From assembly GCA_032252755.1 (NCBI GenBank), contig JAVUPY010000017.1:1-64000 (forward strand): a stretch of DNA of 64,000 nt, in the 5' to 3' direction. The notes beneath the pieces were generated by a model. It saw nothing but the letters and a program-made list of their open reading frames with translations. It was not told the origin of the DNA and searched no databases. The DNA comes from Terriglobia bacterium (lineage in GTDB: Bacteria; Acidobacteriota; Terriglobia; Terriglobales; Acidobacteriaceae). Numbering within the stretch: the first letter of the stretch is position 1; every line of letters begins with the position of its first letter. The position numbers and the translations under genes were made by a program. Below are positions 43,523-56,701 of this stretch, in pieces.

Positions 43523-44614
43523 TTATTGGGTAGTGCTGACCGCTGCTTTGCTCTTCCCCGCAATCCGTGCTGCGAGTTCGGCGATCTGCCCGGCTGCATT
43601 CGGATGTGACAGCTTCTTCGCAGCTTCCGACATCGACCGTAACCGTGCTCGGTCTTTCAGCAAGCCAATCACGTTTTCCGCGAATCGCTTCGAGTTCAAA
43701 TCCTTCTCTTCGATCAGAACCGCGGCGTTATTTCGAACCAGTAATTCGGCGTTCTTGAACTGGTGATTGTCCGCTGCTCCGGCAAAAGGTACGAAAAGTG
43801 CCGGCTTCGCGGCGGCGGTGACTTCGGCAACGGTACTGGCGCCGGAGCGGCACACCAGCAGGTCGGCTCCGGCGAATGCTGAAGCCATGTTGTCGATAAA
43901 CGGAGAAACTTCGGCCGAGATCTTCACGTCGAGATAGGCCTTGGTAACCATCTCGTATTCCTTCTCGCCGGTCTGATGGACGACATGCAGGCCGGGAAGC
44001 GCGGCGGAGAGTTGCGGAAGAGCCTCCACCAGAACCGTATTGAGGATATGCGACCCCTGGCTGCCGCCGAAGAGCAGCAGCGATGGACGAGCGTTCGCAG
44101 CGCGGGTTGGGATCTCGAAGAAGCGCTGCCTGACCGGCACGCCTGTCACAACGCAACGCTTAAAGTACTGGCATGTGGCCTCGAAGTGAACGGCCGCGGT
44201 AGTGGCGAACGGCGCAACCATCTTGTTCGCGAATCCAGGAACAACATTGGGTTCAAAAATGAGCGTGGGTATACGGCGCAGAGTCGCCGCGAGCATCGCC
44301 GGTCCGGAGGCATAGCCGCCGACCCCAATCACAACGTCAGGCTTAAATTCGCCGAGAATTTTGGACGAGGCCAGGATAGCTTGTGGAAGCGCGAACATCG
44401 TTTTAGCCCGGGTTGCCAGGCTGACGCGCTTGAGAGCCCCAACTTCGATAAGCCGCAACTCGAACCCGGACGCCGGGACAAGCCGGGTTTCAATGCCGCG
44501 CGCGGTGCCGATAAACACCACTTCGGCGCTCAGGCGCGACTTCAAGTCCTGGGCGATCGCGAGCGCCGGAATAACGTGACCGCCCGTCCCGCCACCTGCA
44601 AGAACCGCTCTCAT
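43523..44614 (-). CDS. murG: UDP-GlcNAc:undecaprenyl-PP-MurNAc-pentapeptide transferase
   Basis: Makes lipid II from lipid I on the inner face of the membrane. 363 aa with the N-terminal loop [18 protein letters not shown], the second glycine loop [13 protein letters not shown], and the donor-binding [24 protein letters not shown]. The ATG at 44614 is chosen; a TTG one codon earlier (44617) would give an extra Met. It follows ftsW by four bases. It is the last minus-strand dcw gene, since murC comes from the other side. Confidence 0.96.
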
Positions 44615-44618
44615 CAAT

Positions 44619-45710
44619 TTAGTCCGTCTGTTTTGTGATGTTCAGTAAAACGCCGACGCTGGCTAAGGTTATAAACAGCGACGACCCGCCATATGAAATG
44701 AAGGGCAATGGAATGCCTTTGGTTGGCAGGAGTCCGAGCACCACGCTGATATTGAAGAATGCCTGGACACCAACCATGGAGGTGATACCGACGGCGAGAA
44801 ATCGCGCAAAGTTGTCCTTTGTATTCAATGCGCAGCGCAGGCCGCGATAGCAGAAGAACGCAAAAAGGGCCACGATTATGACCGATCCGATCAACCCCCA
44901 CTCTTCGGCTATTACCGCGTAAATGAAGTCGGTCTGCGGCTCGGGAAGGTAGAACAGCTTCTGCTTCCCTTCCATCAGCCCCTTTCCTGTAAAACCACCC
45001 GTACCGACCGCGATCAGCGATTGGATCATGTGGAAGCCGCTGCCCTGCGGATCCGAGTAGGGGTTCAGGAACGCGAGAATACGCTGGTAGCGCCACGGCG
45101 TCCGGAAGATCAGCCAGTACAGCGGCACCATGGAAGCAGCCGCGGCGTATCCGAGATACTTGGGGTGCATTCCTGCGACCCAGAGCACCGTGGCAGTGAT
45201 GGCGCAGCAAGCCATCGCGGTTCCGAGATCCGGCTCCTTTACAATCAGGAGCGCAAACAGCACGCTCGGGATGACTGCCGGAACCAGCGTTCGTCGCCAG
45301 TCTTCAATGTCGCGAAGACGGGTTTCCAGGAAGTACGCGAGATAAAGGATAAGCGCGGGTTTCGCAAGCTCCGACGGCTGAAACGAAAACGCGCCGAGTT
45401 TGATCCACCGATGCGTATTGTGCGACCGGTCGAGGAAGAGAACGAGTATCAGGAGCAGCGTTGTAATGGCCACGCTCGAGTAGACGAACGCCGGATGCCG
45501 GTACTTGCGGTAGTCCACGTTCATCAGCAGTAGCATCGCACCGATACCGGCGAACGCCCAGAACGTCTGCTTGACCATGAAGTAATAAGGCGAGCCGAAG
45601 CGGTCCTTGGCAATCACCGCCGAGGCACTGAAAACCATGACCAGCCCTATGAGAACAAGGAGAACGGTAACGCCAAAAAGCCACCGATCCACGCTGACGC
45701 GCTTGGCCAC
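44619..45710 (-). CDS. ftsW: Lipid II polymerase / division protein FtsW
   Basis: Polytopic SEDS-family glycosyltransferase working with FtsI at the septum. 363 aa with about ten membrane helices; motifs include [65 protein letters not shown] and the C-terminal [19 protein letters not shown]. The start is a GTG at 45710 that directly abuts the murD stop (TAGGTG), with AGGAGG from the murD end as ribosome-binding site. FtsW rather than RodA is indicated by its place between murD and murG. Confidence 0.96.
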
Positions 45711-47102
45711 CTACTTACCTCCTACGTGGGTGGCTTCGCGCGCGGCCAGCGCATGAACGGCTTCTTTGAACGCGCGCCCGCGGTGTTCGTAGCTCTGGAA
45801 CTGATCGAAGCTGGCACACGCGGGCGCCAGCAGCACGATGTCGCCAGCCTGTGCGAACTCGCTCGCCTTTCGGACAGCCTGGTCGAGAGTTCCAGCGCTG
45901 GTGATTTCGACACCGGCAATTTGCGACTCGATCTTCTGCGCCGCCGCACCAATCGTGTAAATCCGCTTCACACGCTCTTTGAGCAGATCGTTAAGCACGG
46001 AGTAGTCGCTGCCTTTGTCTTTCCCACCTAGAATCAGGTGAATGTTGCCGGGGAAAGACTCGAGCGCCTTGATCGTTGCATCGACGTTCGTGGCCTTGGA
46101 GTCATTGAAGTACTGCACGCCTCGAATGGTGGCAGTGTATTCGAGCCGATGCTCAACGGCCTTGAAATCCTTGACAGCCCGACGGACCTTCGTCGGTTCG
46201 ACTCCAGCGAGAATCCCCATCGCGGCCGCCGCCAGAACGTTCTCAAGGTTGTGCGCGCCCTTGAGCGTGATCTCATCCACTGGCATGATCTCGCGCTCAC
46301 CTCGCGCATCGCGAAAGATAATCTTCCCGTTGCGAACGAATGTTCCTCGCTCCACTTCTACTTTTCGGCTGAACCAGTAGACCTGCGGCGTAAGCTTCTG
46401 TACAAGCGTCACACAGGTCGCGTCGTCCATATTAAGGACGGCAAAATCCTTCTCCGACTGATTCTCGAAGATTCGCGCCTTTGCCGCGATGTAAGCCCCC
46501 ATCGAGCCGTGCCGGTCAAGGTGGTCCGGCGTGATATTGAGAATCGCAGCGATATGCGGCCGAAAAGTCTCGATTGTTTCCAACTGGAAGCTGGAGATCT
46601 CCAGCACAACCCAAGTGCTGGGCGATGACTGGTCAACGAACGTAATAGCCGGCGTGCCAATGTTTCCGCCCACCAGCGATTGGAATCCACCCGCGGCAAT
46701 CACCTCGCCGGTCAGCGTGGTCGTAGTCGTTTTTCCGTTCGACCCGGTGATCGCGATAACGCGACCCTGCAGGAAGCGCGTCGCCAATTCGATCTCGCCA
46801 ATAACCGGAATCCCCAGTTTTCGGGCATTCATCAGCGGCGGGACGTCGTTCGGAACGCCGGGGCTGACCACAATCAGGTCCTGCTCGCGAAAAGTCCGCT
46901 CTCCGTGCTTGCCCGTTTCCACGACGATGCCCTTGTCGAGAAGCGCCGGGATCTCCGTCCGGAGTTGCTCCTGTGACTTCTCGTCGGAGACGGTGACCCG
47001 CGCCCCGCGCGATTGCAGAAACAAAGAAGATGCAACGCCCGATTTACCGAGCCCGACCACCAACACACGTTTGCCTTGCACGTCCATGAGTGCCTTCGTC
47101 AT
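45711..47102 (-). CDS. murD: UDP-N-acetylmuramoyl-L-alanine-D-glutamate ligase
   Basis: Adds D-Glu to UDP-MurNAc-L-Ala. 463 aa; the N-terminal VLVVGLGKSGVASSLFL, ATP loop VIAITGSNGKTTTTTLTGE, NITPDHLDRHGSM and YFNDSKATNVDATIKALES are typical. The start could be Met1 (47102) or Met6. It follows mraY after 101 bp, a gap that contains a 7-bp stem (TTGAGGC/GCCTCAA, 47156-47181) without a U-run. It runs directly into ftsW. Confidence 0.96.
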   Translation of the reverse strand: MTKALMDVQGKRVLVVGLGKSGVASSLFLQSRGARVTVSDEKSQEQLRTEIPALLDKGIVVETGKHGERTFREQDLIVVSPGVPNDVPPLMNARKLGIPVIGEIELATRFLQGRVIAITGSNGKTTTTTLTGEVIAAGGFQSLVGGNIGTPAITFVDQSSPSTWVVLEISSFQLETIETFRPHIAAILNITPDHLDRHGSMGAYIAAKARIFENQSEKDFAVLNMDDATCVTLVQKLTPQVYWFSRKVEVERGTFVRNGKIIFRDARGEREIMPVDEITLKGAHNLENVLAAAAMGILAGVEPTKVRRAVKDFKAVEHRLEYTATIRGVQYFNDSKATNVDATIKALESFPGNIHLILGGKDKGSDYSVLNDLLKERVKRIYTIGAAAQKIESQIAGVEITSAGTLDQAVRKASEFAQAGDIVLLAPACASFDQFQSYEHRGRAFKEAVHALAAREATHVGGK

Positions 47103-47203
47103 TGTGCCACGGAAAATGATTGGCGCAATCAGGTAAGAACCTATAAGTGTATCGTTTGAGGCTCAAAACCGGTTGCCTCAATGCGCCCGGGAGCGCCCTG
47201 AGA

Positions 47204-48343
47204 TTAGCGCAGTTTCAAGGTCGTCAGTGCGAACAGCGCGAAGATCAGCGACGCGATCCAGAAGCGCACGATCACCTTCGACTCCGACCATCCCATCAGT
47301 TCGAAATGGTGGTGCAGCGGCGCCATCTTGAAGATTCTCTTCTTGCGAAGTTTGTAGCTGCCCACCTGCAGTATGACCGAGAGTGCTTCGATGACGAAGA
47401 TGCCCCCGATGAACGGCAGCAGCAGTTCTTGCTTGATGATGACCGCAACCGTCCCAATCGCTCCGCCCAGCGCGAGCGACCCGACATCGCCCATGAAAAC
47501 TTCCGCGGGGTGCGCGTTATACCAGAGAAAACCGATCGCTGACCCGACCATCGCCCCGCAGAAAATCGTCAGTTCCCCAACTTGCGGCAGGCTCTGAATT
47601 TCAAGGTAGCTGGCGAAAACGGCATGGCCGCTGACGTACGTCAGCACCGTCAGCGCGCCAGCCGCAATCACCGTGCACCCAATCGCGAGCCCGTCGAGGC
47701 CGTCGGTAAGGTTCACGGCATTGCTCGATCCGACAATTACCAGCACGACGAAAGCAATAAACGGCAGGAAAGCGATGGGCCACAGGTGCGGCTTATCGAG
47801 CAAAGAGCTAAAAACAAGGTCGGGCCGGAACTTCTTGGCGAAGGGCACAATCAAGTGCGTCGAGTACATGCCCACAGCCTGGTAGATGATCAGTGTCGCC
47901 CCGATGATGACAGCGAACAGGATCTGAAGTGCCATCTTGGTGCGCCCGGTCAGGCCAAGGTTCCGGCGGTGGACGACTTTCAGATAGTCGTCAGCAAACC
48001 CGATCCCCCCGTAGGCGAGAGTCGCAAAGACAGCGATCCAGACAAATCGATTCGTCAGGTCCGCCCAGAGAATCGTCGGAATCACGATGGCGATGACAAT
48101 GAGCACTCCGCCCATTGTCGGAGTGCCAGCCTTCTTCTGGTGCGCCTTCGGACCTTCTTCCCGGATGTATTGGCCGATCTGGAACTCGCGCAGCCGGTTC
48201 ACCACCCACGGCCCAACGATCAGCCCCATGAATAACGCCGTCAGGCTGGCGAAGGCCGTTCGGAACGTGAGGAATCGGAAGAGCCTGAACGGCCCGATGC
48301 CGAAGTGCCGGAAAATGTATTCGTATAAAAGCCAGTAGAGCAA
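47204..48343 (-). CDS. mraY: Phospho-MurNAc-pentapeptide transferase
   Basis: Makes lipid I on undecaprenyl phosphate. About 379 aa and ten membrane helices. Motifs: AHQKKAGTPTMGG, NLTDGLDGLA, VFMGDVGSLALGG and PLHHHFE, which hold the catalytic aspartates and the His triad. I place the start at a TTG at 48343 (LYWLLYEYIF), preceded by AAAAGGG; the automatic ATG at 48376 lies in the short intergenic repeat and adds residues not seen in the family. 97 bp separate it from murF. Confidence 0.95.
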   Translation of the reverse strand: MLYWLLYEYIFRHFGIGPFRLFRFLTFRTAFASLTALFMGLIVGPWVVNRLREFQIGQYIREEGPKAHQKKAGTPTMGGVLIVIAIVIPTILWADLTNRFVWIAVFATLAYGGIGFADDYLKVVHRRNLGLTGRTKMALQILFAVIIGATLIIYQAVGMYSTHLIVPFAKKFRPDLVFSSLLDKPHLWPIAFLPFIAFVVLVIVGSSNAVNLTDGLDGLAIGCTVIAAGALTVLTYVSGHAVFASYLEIQSLPQVGELTIFCGAMVGSAIGFLWYNAHPAEVFMGDVGSLALGGAIGTVAVIIKQELLLPFIGGIFVIEALSVILQVGSYKLRKKRIFKMAPLHHHFELMGWSESKVIVRFWIASLIFALFALTTLKLR

Positions 48344-48359
48344 AGAAAACCCTTTTCTA

Positions 48360-48446
48360 GAATGTCGGAATGACAATGTCAGAATGACGAATGGAACTGC
48401 TTTTCGCCGTAATGCATTTCATTCGTCATTTCGACATTCGTCATTT
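48360..48446. repeat. GAATGACGAATG-type inverted word repeat between mraY and murF
   Basis: Left arm 48360-48393 is a run of GAATGTCGGAATGAC / AATGTCAGAATGAC / GAATG words; right arm 48420-48446 is the reverse complement type CATTCGTCATTTCGACATTCGTCATTTT. The right arm overlaps the murF stop codon, so the last MurF residues (RTK) are encoded next to it. Confidence 0.65.
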
Positions 48447-49823
48447 TGTTCGTATCATTCGCGACTTAAACACCTCAAGCCCTCTCTCCAACCTCACTCC
48501 CCGCGATGCCTTGAACAGAATCGCGTCTCCTTCGCGCACTTCCGAAGCCAGACGTTCGCCTGCCTCTTCAGGCGTCTCCACGAACTCCGCGTCCTGCAAC
48601 CCCGCCTCGTGAGCACCTTCTACACAAGCCTGCGCCATGCCCCGGACGCCGATAAGCCGAGTAACGCCGCGTTCGGCCATGTAGCGCCCGCACTCGCGAT
48701 GCAGTTCGGCGCTCGTCGGTCCCAGCTCGAGCATCTCCCCAGAGACCACAATGTGGCGCTTCGCCGGCATCGAGAGGAGTGCGTCTACCATTGCCCTGAG
48801 GGCTTTCGGATTGGAATTGTAGCAATCGTTCAGTACCGTGCTATTACCGATTTGGAGTACCTCTCCACGCTTTTCCACCGGAGCCATTGTGGCGAGAGCC
48901 GCGGCCGCCTCCGACGGTCGAAATCCGAACTGCATTGCCACTGCTACCGCGGCAAGCGCGTTCAGGACATTATGCTCGCCGACCAGAGGCAAAGTGGTGC
49001 GCTCCCGAACACCTTCCACCACAAGATCGAACTCGGTTCCAGCGGTGCCCCGTGCATCAATCTTCTGCGCCAAAATATCAGCGGGACGGCGAATACCATA
49101 CATGACGACCTTGCCGCGGAAGTCGCGGCCGAATTGCGACACGTACTCGTCATCGGCATTCAGAACGGCCACGCCCTGTGCCGGAAGCGATTCGATCAGC
49201 TCGTACTTGGCTCGCGCGATCCCCGCGATCGAGTCGAAGAACTCGAGGTGTACCGGAGCAACGTTCGTCACGACACCCACGTCTGGCCTCGCCTGCCGGG
49301 CAAGTTCAGTGATCTCCCCCGCATGCGACATGCCGAGTTCCAGGACTGCGATCTCGTGCTCGGGCTCGAGCTGAAGCAGATTGAGCGGCAATCCAAAATG
49401 GTTGTTGAAGTTCCCGCGCGACTTGTGGACTCGGAACTTCGAAGCCAGTACGTGAGCAATGGTTTCTTTCGTCGTGGTCTTGCCGGCGGAGCCGGTAACC
49501 CCAACGAGCTTTTTCCCCCAGATGCGGCGGACAGCTGCACCCAGCGACTGCAGCGCCACAAGTGTATCGTCAACCGCCAGCAGGTTGGTCTTGGCCGCAA
49601 ACCGTGCGGCCGCGTCTTCGCGAACGACAGCCGCGACTGCGCCGGCCGCCAGGGCGGCCTCGACATAGTCATGGCCATCGAGGCGCTCACCTTTGACGGC
49701 GAAGAACAGGTCGCCCGGTTGGATGGTGCGGCTGTCAATGGAATAACCGGTCGCGACGGCATTGTCGTCGAACTCACCCACCGCCTGCACCAGTTCCGAA
49801 ATCCGCAAGAGAGATAACTTCAT
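48441..49823 (-). CDS. murF: UDP-MurNAc-tripeptide-D-alanyl-D-alanine ligase
   Basis: Adds D-Ala-D-Ala to the muramyl tripeptide. 460 aa; key parts are GYSIDSRTIQPGDLFFAVKGERLDGH, the ATP loop VGVTGSAGKTTTKETIAHVL, NFNNHFGLPL and LNDCYNSNPKALRAMVDAL. It begins seven bases after the murE stop. The C-terminus ends inside a short dispersed repeat. Confidence 0.96.
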   Translation of the reverse strand: MKLSLLRISELVQAVGEFDDNAVATGYSIDSRTIQPGDLFFAVKGERLDGHDYVEAALAAGAVAAVVREDAAARFAAKTNLLAVDDTLVALQSLGAAVRRIWGKKLVGVTGSAGKTTTKETIAHVLASKFRVHKSRGNFNNHFGLPLNLLQLEPEHEIAVLELGMSHAGEITELARQARPDVGVVTNVAPVHLEFFDSIAGIARAKYELIESLPAQGVAVLNADDEYVSQFGRDFRGKVVMYGIRRPADILAQKIDARGTAGTEFDLVVEGVRERTTLPLVGEHNVLNALAAVAVAMQFGFRPSEAAAALATMAPVEKRGEVLQIGNSTVLNDCYNSNPKALRAMVDALLSMPAKRHIVVSGEMLELGPTSAELHRECGRYMAERGVTRLIGVRGMAQACVEGAHEAGLQDAEFVETPEEAGERLASEVREGDAILFKASRGVRLERGLEVFKSRMIRTK

Positions 49824-49830
49824 TCGTTCC

Positions 49831-51321
49831 TTACTTCCTGTACCCCAGCCGGTTCAACTCTTCTTTCGCAACCGTAAAATCGTCGAAGGGAAAAACGCCT
49901 TCTCGTGTCGTCTGCGTACGCTCGTGACCCTTTCCGGCAATTAGCACGATGTCCCCTGGCTTCGCCTCTTCAAGCGCCTTCGCAATCGCTTTGCGGCGGT
50001 CGGGCTCAAGGATATATGGCGTGCGCGTGCGCTGCAGGCCCAACAGGGCATCATTCATGATCGCCAGCGGATCTTCACTCCGGGGATTATCCGAGGTGAG
50101 CACGACAAAATTACTGCCATTCCCGGCGGCTTCGCCCATCATCGGCCGCTTGGCGCGATCGCGGTCTCCGCCGCAGCCAAATACTGTGATAACCTGCCCG
50201 CCCGCCTTGGCGACGAATTCACGCGCGAGCGCCGTGAGGTTCTTCAGGGCATCATCTGTGTGTGCATAGTCGACGACCACCGAAAACGGCTGGCCTTCAT
50301 CGACGCTTTCGAACCGTCCGGGAACTCGCTCCAGCGCCCCAATACCGCGCGTGATCTCCTCAAGCGAACAGCCTCGGGCGTAAGCGGCGGCCGACGCGGC
50401 AAGCACGTTGTAAACGTTCACCCGCCCACGCATGGGCGAGAACACAGGAATCGTCCCAGTCGGCGTAACCAGGTCGAATCGGTTCCCCGCGGAGCTGATC
50501 TCAAGGCGCTGTGTGCGGAAATCGCCTTTGTCGAGACCATAGGTGAAGACTTCCTCACTGTGCTTTTTGCTGAAATCGAGCAGGCGCCGTCCGTACTCGT
50601 CCTCACAATTGGTGACCGCTACGCGCGGCGGTTCGGTTCCGCACCCCTCGAAAAGGATGCGCTTCGACGCGAAGTACGCATCCATTGTCTTGTGGTAGTC
50701 GAGATGATCCCGCGTGAGGTTCGAAAATATCGACACGTCGAACGGGATCGCATATACCCGCTGCTGCTCCAGCGCATGCGACGAGACCTCCATCACCGCT
50801 TCCGTGGCCCCGTCGGCCAGGGCATGCGCGAATATCTGGTTGAGTTCGAGCGATTCCGGTGTGGTGTGCGGTGCTGGTAGAACTTCACCCGGCAGGTGAT
50901 ATTCGACCGTGCCGACGAGGGCGTTCTTGCGTCCAGCCGTCTTGAGAATCGACTCGACGATGAACGTCGTTGTGGTCTTGCCGTTCGTACCGGTAATGCC
51001 CGTGATCCGCAGCTTCTCCGCCGGACGTTTGTAGAAATTCGCACTCAGACGAGCAAGAGCGCGGCGTCCGTGCGAAACCTGCGCCCACGCGATCCCCGTG
51101 CGCGGCGATTCTGCCGTCGAGTCGGAGACGACCGCAACAGCACCGGCGGCAATCGCCTTATCGATAAAGCGATTTCCGTCCGTGCTCTCGCCACGCATGG
51201 CGACGAAAGCAAAGCCGGGCTTCACCCGGCGGGAGTCGTAATCGAGACCCGTGATCTCGGTGTCCCCCTGCTGGGCGAGTACTTCGGCGCCATCCAACAA
51301 GCGCTGGAAATTCATCTGCAT
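49831..51321 (-). CDS. murE: UDP-MurNAc-L-alanyl-D-glutamate-2,6-diaminopimelate ligase
   Basis: Adds the third residue to the peptide stem. 496 aa. N-terminal GLDYDSRRVKPGFAFVAMRG, ATP loop ITGTNGKTTTTFIVESI, TRDHLDYHKTMDAYF, and the specificity motif SDNPRSEDP, which in this family indicates meso-diaminopimelate rather than lysine, so the wall is predicted to be A1gamma type. Start at Met1 or Met3. The 163-bp gap to ftsI contains word repeats. Confidence 0.96.
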   Translation of the reverse strand: MQMNFQRLLDGAEVLAQQGDTEITGLDYDSRRVKPGFAFVAMRGESTDGNRFIDKAIAAGAVAVVSDSTAESPRTGIAWAQVSHGRRALARLSANFYKRPAEKLRITGITGTNGKTTTTFIVESILKTAGRKNALVGTVEYHLPGEVLPAPHTTPESLELNQIFAHALADGATEAVMEVSSHALEQQRVYAIPFDVSIFSNLTRDHLDYHKTMDAYFASKRILFEGCGTEPPRVAVTNCEDEYGRRLLDFSKKHSEEVFTYGLDKGDFRTQRLEISSAGNRFDLVTPTGTIPVFSPMRGRVNVYNVLAASAAAYARGCSLEEITRGIGALERVPGRFESVDEGQPFSVVVDYAHTDDALKNLTALAREFVAKAGGQVITVFGCGGDRDRAKRPMMGEAAGNGSNFVVLTSDNPRSEDPLAIMNDALLGLQRTRTPYILEPDRRKAIAKALEEAKPGDIVLIAGKGHERTQTTREGVFPFDDFTVAKEELNRLGYRK

Positions 51322-51484: not shown

Positions 51485-53593
51485 TTACCTCGTGAATCTC
51501 ACCGCGATCTTCGACCCAATGGGCAATTTCGTTCCTGGCGCGGGCGATTGCTCTCGCGCGATGCCGCTGCCGAGAATCGCCAACTCGAAGCCGGCTTCCT
51601 GGGCCTTCGCCACCGCCGTCCGCAGGGGCATACCGACGAGCGAGGGAACAACCTGGCCGTCTTCGGCGTCAAGAATAACCGTGCCTTGCGCCGGCGTGGG
51701 GTTCGGGTTCGGGAGCGGCGGACCATCTGAAACGGATTGCTTCATCGAGGCTTGCATAACTCCGCCGGACTTAGCTGTTGAGTTGGGCGTCGCATCGGCT
51801 TCGGTTTCCAGGGGCTCCCCAACATGCTCGTCGTCGCCATCGCTTAGGTCTTCATTCTTCAGCTTCGCGAGCATGCTTTTCCGCTGCGAGTCGGTCTTGA
51901 TCTCCGCATCGTGAGGAACATTCAAGTACGCCAGGACCTTTTGCGCGATCCGCGCGAACACCGGTGCTGAAACCTGGCCGCCTTGGTGCAAGCCCTTGGG
52001 CGAGTCGAGGCTCACCACGATGGTTAGCGCCGGATTATTGACCGGCGCAAAACCTGCAAACGTCGCAACGTAATTTGTTTGAGAGTAACGGCCAGTCGCA
52101 GGATCCACTTTCTGCGCGGTACCGGTTTTACCCGCGCTCGTATAGCCATTCAGAATCGCGCGGCGCGCGGTGCCGAACAACACAACCTGTTCCATCAGTC
52201 TCTTCATGGTTGCCGCGGTCATCGTGGAGATGACCCGGTGCTGTTGCGGCGGTCGAAAGACGATTTGCTGGTAAAGACTGCTGGGCTCCGTCAATCCCGC
52301 GACTACCCGTGGCGGCGTGTAGATCCCGTCGTTCGCAACCGTCGAAATCATCGAGGCAAGTTGCAGCGGAGTTACCCCGACTTCCTGCCCAATGGACATC
52401 GCGCCGATTGATGATGCCGACCAGCGGCTCGGGGGCTTCACCAGCCCGCGCGTCTCCCCGGGCAGTTCAATTCCCGTATGCTGCCCGAACCCGTAATCGC
52501 GAATGTATTTGTAAAAACGATCCGGACCGAGACGTAGTCCCATTTTCACCGCCGCGACGTCGCTCGATTCGGCGTACGCCTTCTCCAGGGTTACAGTCCC
52601 GATGTGGTGTGCGTCCCGTATGCGAATCCCGCCGACATTGATGTACCCGGGATCGCAATCCGTGATCTCGTCCGTTTTCGCCAGGTGGTCTTCGAAAACC
52701 GCTGAGTAGGTAACCGTCTTAAACACCGAACCGGGCTCGTAGACATCGCTTACGGCATGGTTCTTCAGCGCGGCCGGAGTAATTTGTTTTGAAATGTTCG
52801 GATTAAACGTTGGCCTGTTTGCCAGGGCCAGTATTTCGCCCGTCCGCGGGTTTTGTACCACCACTGTCCCGGAAGCCGCGTGCGTATCCGCCATCGCTTG
52901 GGCGAGCTCGGTCTCTACAATGTATTGAATCTTCTCGTCGATGGTGAGGACCACGTTCTGACCCGGGTCCGGACGCTTTTCGATGCTGCCGAGCGATTTG
53001 CGCCGCGCGTCGAGCGAGATCACCATCTTGCCCGGCGTGCCGCGCAGTTGCTCATCGTACTCGCGCTCGATACCGGCAAGCCCCTCGTCATCAAGACCGA
53101 CATAACCAAGCACCTGCGCGGTTAATTCGCGGTTGGGATAAAACCGCTTCGGCTCCTGCTGGAAGTAGATTCCCTTCAAATTCAGAGCGCGTATCCGCGC
53201 CGACACATCGCCATCAACCTTGCGCGCAATCCACGCGAAGTTTCGCGACCCCTTCAACCGCGCAAGCAGTTCGCGCGGATCCGTCTTCAGAATCCTTCCG
53301 AGTATCGATGCCGTCGAGGCTTGATCTGGAATTTCGCTGGGAACCGCAAACACCGAGTCAACCATGATCGACATCGCCAGTTCCTGCCCGTTGCGGTCAT
53401 AAATAACTCCGCGCCGTGGAGCGACATCGACCGTACGCTGCTGCTGACGCTCAGCCCTGTCAACGAAAAACCCGTATTGGAAGATTTGTAGATAGACGAG
53501 CCGTCCGCAGATCGCAACGGCCCAAAAGCAAAGAAAAATGACAAAAAGATAAAGTCTTGGTTTGGCTCCGTTCGCTGCTGTAGTGGATGCCAT
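51485..53593 (-). CDS. ftsI: Septal peptidoglycan transpeptidase FtsI (PBP3) with a PASTA domain
   Basis: Class B penicillin-binding protein, 702 aa with the start at 53593. One N-terminal membrane helix (YLFVIFLCFWAVAICGRLV), dimerisation domain with RRGVIYDRNGQELA, then the transpeptidase: SxxK as GSVFKT, second motif as ESSD instead of the common SxN, and KTGTA in SAGKTGTAQ. After it come a spacer rich in Asp, Glu and Ser and one PASTA domain (VPSLVGMPLRTAVAKAQEAG) at the end. The upstream extension to 53719 crosses intergenic hairpins and is rejected. Works with FtsW and FtsL at the septum. Confidence 0.95.
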   Translation of the reverse strand: MASTTAANGAKPRLYLFVIFLCFWAVAICGRLVYLQIFQYGFFVDRAERQQQRTVDVAPRRGVIYDRNGQELAMSIMVDSVFAVPSEIPDQASTASILGRILKTDPRELLARLKGSRNFAWIARKVDGDVSARIRALNLKGIYFQQEPKRFYPNRELTAQVLGYVGLDDEGLAGIEREYDEQLRGTPGKMVISLDARRKSLGSIEKRPDPGQNVVLTIDEKIQYIVETELAQAMADTHAASGTVVVQNPRTGEILALANRPTFNPNISKQITPAALKNHAVSDVYEPGSVFKTVTYSAVFEDHLAKTDEITDCDPGYINVGGIRIRDAHHIGTVTLEKAYAESSDVAAVKMGLRLGPDRFYKYIRDYGFGQHTGIELPGETRGLVKPPSRWSASSIGAMSIGQEVGVTPLQLASMISTVANDGIYTPPRVVAGLTEPSSLYQQIVFRPPQQHRVISTMTAATMKRLMEQVVLFGTARRAILNGYTSAGKTGTAQKVDPATGRYSQTNYVATFAGFAPVNNPALTIVVSLDSPKGLHQGGQVSAPVFARIAQKVLAYLNVPHDAEIKTDSQRKSMLAKLKNEDLSDGDDEHVGEPLETEADATPNSTAKSGGVMQASMKQSVSDGPPLPNPNPTPAQGTVILDAEDGQVVPSLVGMPLRTAVAKAQEAGFELAILGSGIAREQSPAPGTKLPIGSKIAVRFTR

Positions 53594-53630
53594 CCGTATC
53601 CCTGATCGTAGTTCTTGAATGTTGTTGGTG

Positions 53631-53665
53631 GCCCCACATCTGCCGCGGTTAGCGGATGTGGGGTT
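53631..53665. repeat. Dispersed palindromic element, copy C
   Basis: Arms CCCCACAT and ATGTGGGG (53632-53639, 53655-53662) with an inner CCGC/GCGG pair. Sits in the ftsL-ftsI gap, so it is transcribed as a hairpin in the ftsI leader. Related to 24483-24517 and 28816-28850. Confidence 0.65.
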
Positions 53666-53691
53666 ACCGCATCCCGTCCTTTGAGATACCA

Positions 53692-53719
53692 ATGGCGGTC
53701 CCACCTTGTGGACCGCCAT
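53692..53719. repeat. Perfect 10-bp hairpin in the ftsL-ftsI gap
   Basis: ATGGCGGTCC / GGACCGCCAT with CAC/GTG pairing further inside after a one-base bulge. No U-run follows on either strand, so it is not a classical terminator. Possibly an mRNA-stability or attenuation hairpin. Confidence 0.65.
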
Positions 53720-54541: not shown

Positions 54542-55552
54542 TCATCTCGTTCTCCTCGCGGCTCGCATCTTGGCGCTACGGCTCCGCGGATTCCCTGCGA
54601 TCTCTTCCTCGTCTGCCGTGACCGGCTTGCGTGTCAGCACCTCCCAGGTGCCTTCGCGCGCGCCCTCGCGCAGCGCATCTTTCACCATCCGGTCTTCCAA
54701 CGAGTGAAAGCTGATCATCACCAGCCTTCCCTCTTTCCGAAGCACCTTGGGCGCTGCCTCGAGCAGCGCCCCCAGGTCTTCCAGTTCGCGGTTTACGAAT
54801 ATTCGGAGAGCTTGAAAAGTCAATGTCGCTGGATGAATTCGCCGTTCCGCTTGTTCTGGTTTGCGGGGCCCCCGGCGCGAGCCGCTTTTGCTCGCGATGG
54901 GGCTTTTCATTGGCCGGGCCGCGGCCGATACAACTTGTGCTAGATGAGCGGTCGTTCTTATCGGCCGCGCCCGAACAATGGCTCTGGCGATTCTCCGCGA
55001 CCTCCTTTCCTCACCGAATTCGTAAATCAGGTCGGCGAGTGTTTTCTCGTCGAACTGGTTTACCACTTGATCGGCGGTCAACTCGGCTTGCGGGTTCATC
55101 CGCATGTCGAGCGGTCCTTCCGCCTGAAAACTGAATCCACGCGCAGGGTCTTCGAACTGCATCGAGCTCACTCCCAGGTCCGCGAGCAATCCGTTCAGCG
55201 ATCCCGGCTCCACTCTCGTCGCAACTTCTGCATACGAGGCATGCACCAGGGTCACGGAAGGCCAATCACTGCGCAGTTCCTGCGGAGGCTCCAACAACCG
55301 CCTGCGGGCCAACTCCAGCGCTCGCGTGTCCTTATCGAAGCCAATCAAACGACCCTGTGCGCCGAGGCGTTTTGCAATTTCGAAACTGTGCCCGCCCAGG
55401 CCCACCGTGGCGTCCAGATAAGTCCCGCCGCGCTGAACGGCCAGGAAATCGATCGCCTGTTTCAAAAGAACCGATACATGGCCAAACTTGCCTTTGCCAT
55501 GCGCGCCCCTCTGAGCGCTGGGGTCGAACTCCCTGTCGCTGTCGTCCGTCAC
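54542..55552 (-). CDS. rsmH: 16S rRNA (cytosine(1402)-N4)-methyltransferase
   Basis: SAM-dependent methyltransferase (formerly MraW) acting on 16S rRNA C1402. 336 aa with GHVSVLLKQAIDFLAV, the SAM motif YLDATVGLGGHSFEIAKRL, GFDKDTRALELA, DLGVSSMQFEDPARGFSF, and near the C-terminus MISFHSLEDRMVKDALREGA. The start is a GTG at 55552 that overlaps the mraZ stop by one base (TAGTG). An insert rich in Arg/Pro (about residues 215-240, ARPMKSPIASKSGSRRGPRK) is longer than usual. Confidence 0.96.
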   Translation of the reverse strand: MTDDSDREFDPSAQRGAHGKGKFGHVSVLLKQAIDFLAVQRGGTYLDATVGLGGHSFEIAKRLGAQGRLIGFDKDTRALELARRRLLEPPQELRSDWPSVTLVHASYAEVATRVEPGSLNGLLADLGVSSMQFEDPARGFSFQAEGPLDMRMNPQAELTADQVVNQFDEKTLADLIYEFGEERRSRRIARAIVRARPIRTTAHLAQVVSAAARPMKSPIASKSGSRRGPRKPEQAERRIHPATLTFQALRIFVNRELEDLGALLEAAPKVLRKEGRLVMISFHSLEDRMVKDALREGAREGTWEVLTRKPVTADEEEIAGNPRSRSAKMRAARRTR

Positions 55553-55995
55553 TAGATGCCCAACTTACCCAAAGTTTCCGCATCTTCAGGAGTGAACGGC
55601 TGCGCTTCCATCTCCTTCTTGAACTCTTCCGCGTTGCGCACTTCCAGGTTCGTCAGGTTCCCGAATACGAGTACTTCGCCTTTAATGTTCGCGCTCTCGC
55701 GCAGAAGGCTCGGAACCAGCAAACGCCCCTGTCCGTCCATCTCGACAACCTGCCCGTAGTAGTTGGTGCGATCGAGAAACTTCTTCTTCGTCGGATTGAA
55801 AGTCGGCAACGCTGCCAACTTCTGCTCGATCCGCTCCCACTCTTCCATCGGGTAAATCTGCGCGACCTTCCCATCCAGGCTCGTGATGTAGAACTTCAGC
55901 GAGCTGTACTTCTCGTCCAGCACGCGCTTGAAGTCCGCCGGGACCTTCAACCGTCCCTTTTCGTCGATCCGGGTTGGAGAGTTGCCGCGAAACAT
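55552..55995 (-). CDS. mraZ: Transcriptional regulator MraZ
   Basis: DNA-binding regulator of the dcw cluster with two AbrB/SpoVT-like half-domains. 147 aa from MFRGNSPTRIDEKGRLKVP, with the two signature repeats DEKGRLKVPADFK and DGQGRLLVPSLLR. E. coli MraZ starts the same way, so I use the ATG at 55995. The frame is open to ATG 56100, adding 35 residues (MSKQGHWGSW...) with no family match; that start lies only 15 bp from the operator-like repeats, so the longer form cannot be excluded. MraZ rings bind direct repeats upstream of their own gene; such repeats are seen at 56145-56189. Confidence 0.94.
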   Translation of the reverse strand: MFRGNSPTRIDEKGRLKVPADFKRVLDEKYSSLKFYITSLDGKVAQIYPMEEWERIEQKLAALPTFNPTKKKFLDRTNYYGQVVEMDGQGRLLVPSLLRESANIKGEVLVFGNLTNLEVRNAEEFKKEMEAQPFTPEDAETLGKLGI

Positions 55996-56114
55996 ACTTG
56001 CTAGCTCGTCCAAGAGCTGCCAATCTTGCTGGTTCGGCCCCTTTTGAAGCTTTTTCGAACCCATTGCTGTCCAGGAGCCCCAGTGGCCTTGCTTCGACAT
56101 CGAGTTGTTGGTCG

Positions 56115-56189
56115 ACCACTTTTTGGTTCATCTGAGAACCGGCCACCACGACCAACCACCTTGCTCCACTTCGTACCACTTTGGACCAC
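56115..56189 (-). promoter_or_regulatory. MraZ operator: 10-bp-phased GTGG repeats
   Basis: On the minus strand GTGG occurs with exact 10-bp spacing at 56189, 56179, 56169, 56159 and 56149 (first base on that strand), often preceded by AA, and a sixth AAAGTGG lies in phase three turns on (56119). This matches the direct-repeat form of known MraZ boxes (TGGGN-N5 in E. coli, AAAGTG in mycoplasmas). It covers the predicted transcription start. Confidence 0.75.
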
Positions 56190-56217
56190 ATCCTACGCCT
56201 AACTGGTTGTGTGTCAA
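56190..56217 (-). promoter_or_regulatory. dcw (mraZ) promoter
   Basis: TTGACA (56212-56217) and TAGGAT (56190-56195) on the minus strand, 16-bp spacer. The -35 is perfect, the -10 matches four of six. It sits immediately upstream of the MraZ-box array. Confidence 0.6.
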
Positions 56218-56545
56218 TAACTTTTTTAATGTGGAAAACGCGGACGGACATGTCCTTCAGGTAGTCTTTTGGGTTGCTGCGAATGAAGTCGAGGAATTGT
56301 GGTGTGACTCCCACCAGCCACAATCTTTAGCGTTTACTTCCGTGGTTCATGCGAACTAGCCCGTATAACTCGCGTTTTCACATTCCGCGTGGAGCCCCGG
56401 CTCCCTTTTGCAGGTACTAGCATTTTGTATCGAGCGGGTCGCTCCGGGTGGTCGAAGGTAGACTAAATTCCGTGTGGTGGTAAAAAGTGGAGCCCCGCGG
56501 GAATTTCGGGCAGCCGATGAACGTCAAAACCGACACTAAGTGATT
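56218..56545. other. Intergenic region upstream of the dcw promoter
   Basis: 328 bp with no ORF of note. A TGTGGAAAA (56230-56238, a DnaA-box-like TTTTCCACA on the minus strand) lies 13 bp upstream of the -35. GGAGCC-CC-GGCTCC followed by CTTTT (56391-56408) is a weak hairpin. Confidence 0.45.
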
Positions 56546-56701
56546 ATGTGGCTACACCTGCTTGGGTCATGTCTAACGGCACTGTTCTTCCTCGGACTCA
56601 TGGGTTCCACCATTGTGGCTGTGCTCTTTCTCGTCGAATTGTTCGGAACTGTGTTGCACGGTGAGCACAATCGGGAGGATGAACCGATCCCCAGTTCTTG
56701 A
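56546..56701 (+). CDS. Small single-span membrane protein
   Basis: 51-aa ORF: a hydrophobic N-terminal half (MWLHLLGSCLTALFFLGLMG and STIVAVLFLVELFG) followed by an acidic tail HGEHNREDEPIPSS. The pattern of a Gly-Ser break within the hydrophobic stretch and Glu at its end resembles short membrane proteins I have seen in acidobacterial genomes, but I cannot confirm. No strong ribosome-binding site. It diverges from the dcw promoter. Confidence 0.5.
   Translation: MWLHLLGSCLTALFFLGLMGSTIVAVLFLVELFGTVLHGEHNREDEPIPSS

Follow-up and report, generated by a model that had tools for sequence, protein, structure and literature searches.

The window analyzed here, a 64,000-nt stretch of a genome assigned to a Terriglobia bacterium, a soil acidobacterium, carries a regularly spaced series of GTGG motifs in front of mraZ. 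This raises the question of which protein, if any, reads these motifs, and what their number means. We conclude, with a probability of roughly 0.92, that the GTGG array is the predicted operator of MraZ, the product of the gene that opens the dcw cluster served by this promoter. This reading draws on the position and phase of the repeats, their conservation, the near-absence of such arrays elsewhere in the genome, the typical character of the MraZ protein, and the dcw gene order.

A phased GTGG array at the mraZ promoter

On the minus strand, GTGG starts at 56189, 56179, 56169, 56159, and 56149, in exact 10-bp steps; a sixth GTGG in phase with these starts at 56119, 30 bp past the fifth, and an additional copy starting at 56146 overlaps box 5. 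Toward mraZ, the order is TTGACA, 16 bp, and TAGGAT, followed directly by GTGGTCCAAAGTGGTACGAAGTGGAGCAAGGTGGTTGGTCGTGG, a gap, and AAAAAGTGG. The array lies approximately 190 bp upstream of mraZ, and box 1 starts at the base that directly follows the −10 element. A promoter scan independently chose the same TTGACA-16-TAGGAT arrangement. The positions of the six motifs and the promoter, as claimed in the initial annotation, are thus borne out on the minus strand. Its choice of AAGTGG as the repeat unit suits boxes 2 and 3 (AAAGTGG and GAAGTGG) and fails for boxes 1, 4, and 5 (GATGTGG, AAGGTGG, and GTCGTGG); because the literal AAGTGG occurs in boxes 2 and 3 only, GTGG is the accurate core. The features of the locus are as follows (all on the minus strand).

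56212–56217 (−), −35 element TTGACA; sequence and promoter scan, TTGAC start conserved in relatives
56190–56195 (−), −10 element TAGGAT; sequence, promoter scan, and conservation
56186–56189 (−), predicted MraZ box 1, GATGTGG, abutting the −10 element; offset 0
56176–56179 (−), predicted MraZ box 2, AAAGTGG; offset 10
56166–56169 (−), predicted MraZ box 3, GAAGTGG; offset 20
56156–56159 (−), predicted MraZ box 4, AAGGTGG; offset 30
56146–56149 (−), predicted MraZ box 5, GTCGTGG, within GGTCGTGG; offset 40
56116–56119 (−), sixth in-phase GTGG, weak candidate box; offset 70, inside the +1 leader frame
55682–56131 (−), leader reading frame in frame +1; begins at ATG 56131 (MNQK...) and overlaps the first 314 nt of mraZ out of frame
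55552–55995 (−), mraZ; PF02381 above cut-off, MraZ NCBIfam matches, alignment, and model
54542–55552 (−), rsmH (mraW), second dcw gene; TIGR00006
53756–54268 (−), ftsL; TIGR02209, under its curated cut-off
51485–53719 (−), ftsI-type penicillin-binding protein; database match
43523–51321 (−), murE, murF, mraY, murD, ftsW, and murG, in this order; gene order

The phasing of the five boxes is far above the chance level. With GTGG positions assumed independent, the expected number of five-box chains on both strands is 1.6e-7 in 64 kb and 1.3e-5 in the 5.39-Mb genome, and 300 windows simulated with an order-2 Markov model contained no chain of four. Within its own 5.39-Mb genome, three phased GTGG motifs occur at two places only, the mraZ promoter and one other. 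From the spacing to the −10 element, transcription is predicted to start at approximately 56182–56184, between boxes 1 and 2. The promoter spacer also holds TTAGGCG (56196–56202, −) directly before the −10 element; it is kept in most family members, possibly as the sign of an additional regulator or of a class of promoters. On the opposite strand, a two-box GTGG site (GTGGTAAAAAGTGG, 56477–56490, +) lies upstream of a small membrane-protein-like ORF (56546–56698, +; 51 aa), which is divergent from mraZ and has a single weak match among 60 relatives.

The genes that follow, mraZ, rsmH, ftsL, ftsI, murE, murF, mraY, murD, ftsW, and murG, lie on one strand and constitute a dcw cluster. In relatives, MraZ begins with MFRGN, corresponding to ATG 55995, which is the start conserved in the family; the ORF could extend to ATG 56100. 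With the start at ATG 55995, the predicted mraZ leader (55995–56185, −) is long, at approximately 190 nt; it spans approximately 150–280 nt in most family members with a leader frame. The protein has what is expected of a cognate MraZ, namely two MraZ-domain halves and both DxxxR motifs (DEKGR at residues 11–15 and DGQGR at 87–91), and D11, R15, D87, and R91 are invariant across 24 aligned sequences. Its AlphaFold model (pLDDT 95) aligns with MraZ of M. pneumoniae and M. genitalium over 137–138 residues (Z 17–18.6). The matched structures include two cryo-EM structures of MraZ on promoter DNA, 9sz7 and 9r4j; with the former, M. genitalium MraZ in an entry titled "4 box promoter," the model aligns at Z 18.0 over 138 residues.

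Conservation and origin of the boxes

We compared mraZ upstream regions from 60 relatives and then from one genome per genus for 60 genera of the family, and we drew further regions from 64 named assemblies and from phylum-wide pattern matches. At least three GTGG motifs at exact 10-bp steps precede mraZ in 48 of the 60 family genera (one genome each); 12,000 dinucleotide shuffles of these upstream regions never gave three phased motifs. Six of the 60 genera have no phased GTGG pair upstream of mraZ. The alignment of relatives that the initial annotation had proposed as a check is therefore passed by a wide margin, and its claim of an MraZ operator covering the dcw start is very probably correct.

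The usual form in the family is TTGACA-16-TAGGAT with boxes at offsets 0, 10, and 20 and a distal GTGGG at 41. In a comparison of 62 relatives' loci, GTGG is present in 61 at offset 0, 60 at offset 10, and 59 at offset 20, these being the positions that anchor the comparison, with offset 0 as the anchor itself. At offset 41, GTGG occurs in 45 of the 62 loci, against approximately 0.8 expected per offset, with the consensus GG(T/C)CGTGGG, and at offset 30 or 31 in just four (G011, G030, G032, and L126). The bases between boxes vary while GTGG remains constant, and TTGAC starts 28 bp before box 1 in 48 of the 57 relatives where it was found. Conserved GTGG arrays were found at mraZ and not at other genes. 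No relative truly lacking mraZ was found for a test of co-loss; one genome (G033) gave no match, and its rsmH lies at a contig edge.

An operator of three or four boxes, and no more, does not describe the window, which has five exact boxes. Among the 60 family genera it is alone in having five at exactly 10 bp; two members (G011 and G030) have five boxes at the same place with one 11-bp step. The proposal that the copy number is unusually high accordingly stands within the family and does not extend beyond it. Four boxes are frequent in the sister family, 45 of 396 genomes across the phylum have four or more exact boxes, and most sampled genomes of genus g82 have two overlapping four-box matches, equivalent to five boxes, in an array that lies upstream of mraZ in all 22 fetched loci (L065–L086).

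The family form suggests how the window's array arose. Box 5 (GGTCGTGG, offset 40) is the probable counterpart of the relatives' distal box at 41, since its flank matches the GG(T/C)CGTGGG of that box, and box 4 was probably acquired recently, occupying a turn (30–31) that is normally empty. The likeliest history, judged from these alignments, would start from core boxes at 0, 10, and 20 and a distal box at 41, with the loss of approximately one base from the interval between boxes 3 and 5 and the appearance of box 4. The sixth box may be coincidental, because it falls within the leader reading frame and has no consistent counterpart: at offsets 71–73, relatives carry the GTG start codon of the leader frame, sometimes as GTGA, and the box is not what is conserved. 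We rejected the GTGG at offset 72 in relatives as an extra MraZ box on the same grounds, since the leader frame takes its GTG start codon from this position, where several genomes have GTGA.

The second triple GTGG of the genome (contig C88, 7668–7691; L064:1501–1524, −) sits in the promoter region for two cell-division genes, zapB-like and zapA, downstream of pheT and on the opposite strand. As a candidate member of an MraZ regulon it was rejected, with three phased boxes in 0 of 29 relatives and two boxes, 20 bp apart, in one. The site is only a lead, given this absence of conservation in the 29 relatives and the approximately 0.8 such sites expected by chance. Within murF, GTGGAAAAGCGTGG (48865–48878, −) is identical to 14 bp of this site, probably by chance.

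An out-of-frame reading frame in the mraZ leader

Many family members (L098–L128 and G001–G036) have a reading frame in the mraZ leader, typically with a Shine-Dalgarno sequence GAGGCGCCA and GTG at offset 72, a hydrophobic stretch, and a continuation into mraZ in the +1 frame. Membership in this class was assigned mechanically, as a +1 frame open over the 30 codons before mraZ in one genome per genus. Of 41 genera open upstream by this criterion, 33 are also open through at least 75 codons of mraZ, versus 1 of 19 closed upstream (Fisher p = 2.6e-8, a value that overstates independence because the genera are related, as do the other p values for this frame). Of all 60 genera, 33 thus have a leader frame that meets no stop in the first 75 or more mraZ codons. 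No association between upstream and mraZ openness was found for frame +2 (p = 1). In the window, the +1 frame stays open over 104 mraZ codons (shuffle p below 0.01), and its leader frame has no hydrophobic segment (hydropathy 0.09).

Codon usage in mraZ is consistent with stops being avoided in this frame. In the open class, T stands at 17 of 695 third positions at which it would give rise to a +1 stop, versus 112 of 665 matched control contexts; the closed class has 46 of 335 versus 51 of 289, where avoidance is not clear. Shuffling synonymous codons gives an expected +1 open length of 72 nt against 335 nt observed, and has no effect in frame +2. Part of this openness is possibly a generic codon-context bias, because rsmH, taken as a control from the same genomes, also shows a mild general depletion of +1 stops, strong in its first 150 nt. 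A hydropathy segment with a mean of at least 1.6 within the 40 codons before mraZ, in frame +1 only, is present in 23 of the 33 open genera and in 0.5% of shuffles. Amino-acid-level selection on the overlapping frame was rejected: conservation at fourfold sites of mraZ codons 1–75 is no higher than in rsmH, leaving these sites free, and leader pN/pS is 0.86, equal to that of shifted frames. Openness and hydrophobicity are therefore supported, and residue identity is not.

These observations lead us to a tentative proposal, to which we give a little less than even odds, that in much of the family the MraZ operator controls two overlapping genes, one for a small membrane-helix protein running from the leader through at least half of mraZ out of frame, and the other for MraZ, and that translation of the first could set the amount of the second. 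Under the two-gene proposal, the window genome would have kept the open frame and lost the hydrophobic segment. The finding of such a leader frame in about half of the sampled genera may be newer than the operator finding. At the RNA level, no minus-strand terminator was found in the window's leader, its fold is no better than that of shuffles (z −0.39), and an Rfam search of the leader region returned zero family matches.

MraZ as the predicted reader of the array

That the array serves another conserved dcw regulator of Acidobacteriota in place of MraZ is very improbable in our judgment. The spacer motif TTAGGCG is also conserved and could mark a second factor; however, E. coli mraZ has the same GTGG core and 10-bp step, with MraZ binding reported there, the mollicute boxes (AAAGTG[T/G]) share the core (PMC8475190), and the conserved arrays were found at mraZ and at none of the other genes. 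Less credible still is an origin of the repeats as a by-product of coding or leader sequence, through low complexity, RNA structure, or start codons. The offset-72 motif of relatives, being a start codon, is an instance of just this, but the boxes at offsets 0, 10, 20, and 41 precede the leader frame, and their GTGG is retained although the bases separating them vary, and the leader RNA neither exceeds shuffles in stability nor matches an Rfam family.

It is a distinct possibility, though one we do not favor, that only the three-box core, with or without one distal box, is functional and that boxes 4 and 6 are chance occurrences of no effect. Most relatives indeed have three core boxes and one at 41, box 4 reads AAGGTGG, and box 6 sits inside the leader frame. 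Against this, longer arrays recur: five boxes with one 11-bp step are present in two family members, and arrays of five in exact phase precede mraZ at every locus fetched from a distant genus, most of whose sampled genomes carry them. A three-box core is in any case a sub-case of the MraZ operator and compatible with it.

Taking the array as an MraZ operator, its position and the behavior of MraZ elsewhere suggest that MraZ would bind and repress here. A single MraZ ring would contact the GTGG boxes one after another along the same side of the helix, over a stretch that opens right behind the −10 element and takes in the predicted start (56182–56184), and would so prevent use of the promoter. 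Placed there, the protein would keep an open complex from forming or the polymerase from escaping the promoter, which would lower expression of mraZ and the following dcw genes. Autorepression of the dcw cluster by MraZ, as predicted in the initial annotation, is plausible. Five boxes would be expected to make binding tighter or more graded. Some of the five may stay unbound, since AA stands directly before GTGG in boxes 2 and 3 and is missing from boxes 1, 4, and 5; as five contiguous boxes are one more than in the M. genitalium MraZ complex, they might call for a bigger ring or for two rings.

The finding extends the MraZ operator in detail to another phylum and points to a common grammar, GTGG every 10 bp from the −10 element, in which the number of boxes, three to five, depends on lineage. 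The varying natural promoters make the relation among box number, MraZ ring size, and repression testable, and the leader frame, if translated, would add a second layer of control to a very conserved cell-division regulator.

The array has the features of an MraZ operator, namely 10-bp direct repeats at the mraZ promoter and a core common to E. coli and mollicute boxes (GTGG and AAGTG). In E. coli, the mraZ operator reportedly consists of direct repeats upstream of mraZ. The K-12 sequence reads GTGGGAAATT GTGGGGCAAA GTGGGAATAA GGGG (as a whole, GTGGGAAATTGTGGGGCAAAGTGGGAATAAGGGG) and resembles the window in its GTGG core, its exact 10-bp steps, and its place shortly before mraZ, across the region of the dcw promoter. 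The view that the window's repeats resemble the mycoplasma boxes more than those of E. coli consequently falls, as the K-12 operator itself has the GTGG core and the 10-bp step. K-12 has three exact copies and a degenerate fourth, whereas the window has five exact copies, and the base after GTGG is G in E. coli and T or A in the window.

The predicted leader, at approximately 190 nt, also contrasts with the 38-nt 5′ UTR reported for E. coli (PMC5089854). Most species examined have an mraZ leader of at most 70 nt, and a long leader with a terminator is described as special to Rhodobacteraceae (PMC5089854). The extended mraZ leader of that family (sRNA UpsM; approximately 200–270 nt) is similar in length to the window's (PMC5089854), which differs in carrying an out-of-frame reading frame instead of a terminator or an unusually stable fold.

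MraZ of both E. coli and mollicutes represses its own cluster via direct repeats (PMC8475190). For mollicutes, the consensus AAAGTG[T/G] (Fisunov et al. 2016, as quoted in PMC8475190) likewise describes repeated AAGTG-type boxes at the mraZ promoter, read by an MraZ of the same fold. M. genitalium has four boxes (9sz7), whereas the window has five contiguous ones, all GTGG and none GTGT. Closest in number are the g82 arrays (L065–L086), also five GTGG motifs at exact 10-bp steps upstream of mraZ; they belong to a distant family of the same phylum and differ in promoter context, with the first box approximately 105 nt before mraZ. Set beside these systems, the locus is very probably a switch of a familiar type whose boxes are somewhat more numerous than is usual, and its novelty is modest.
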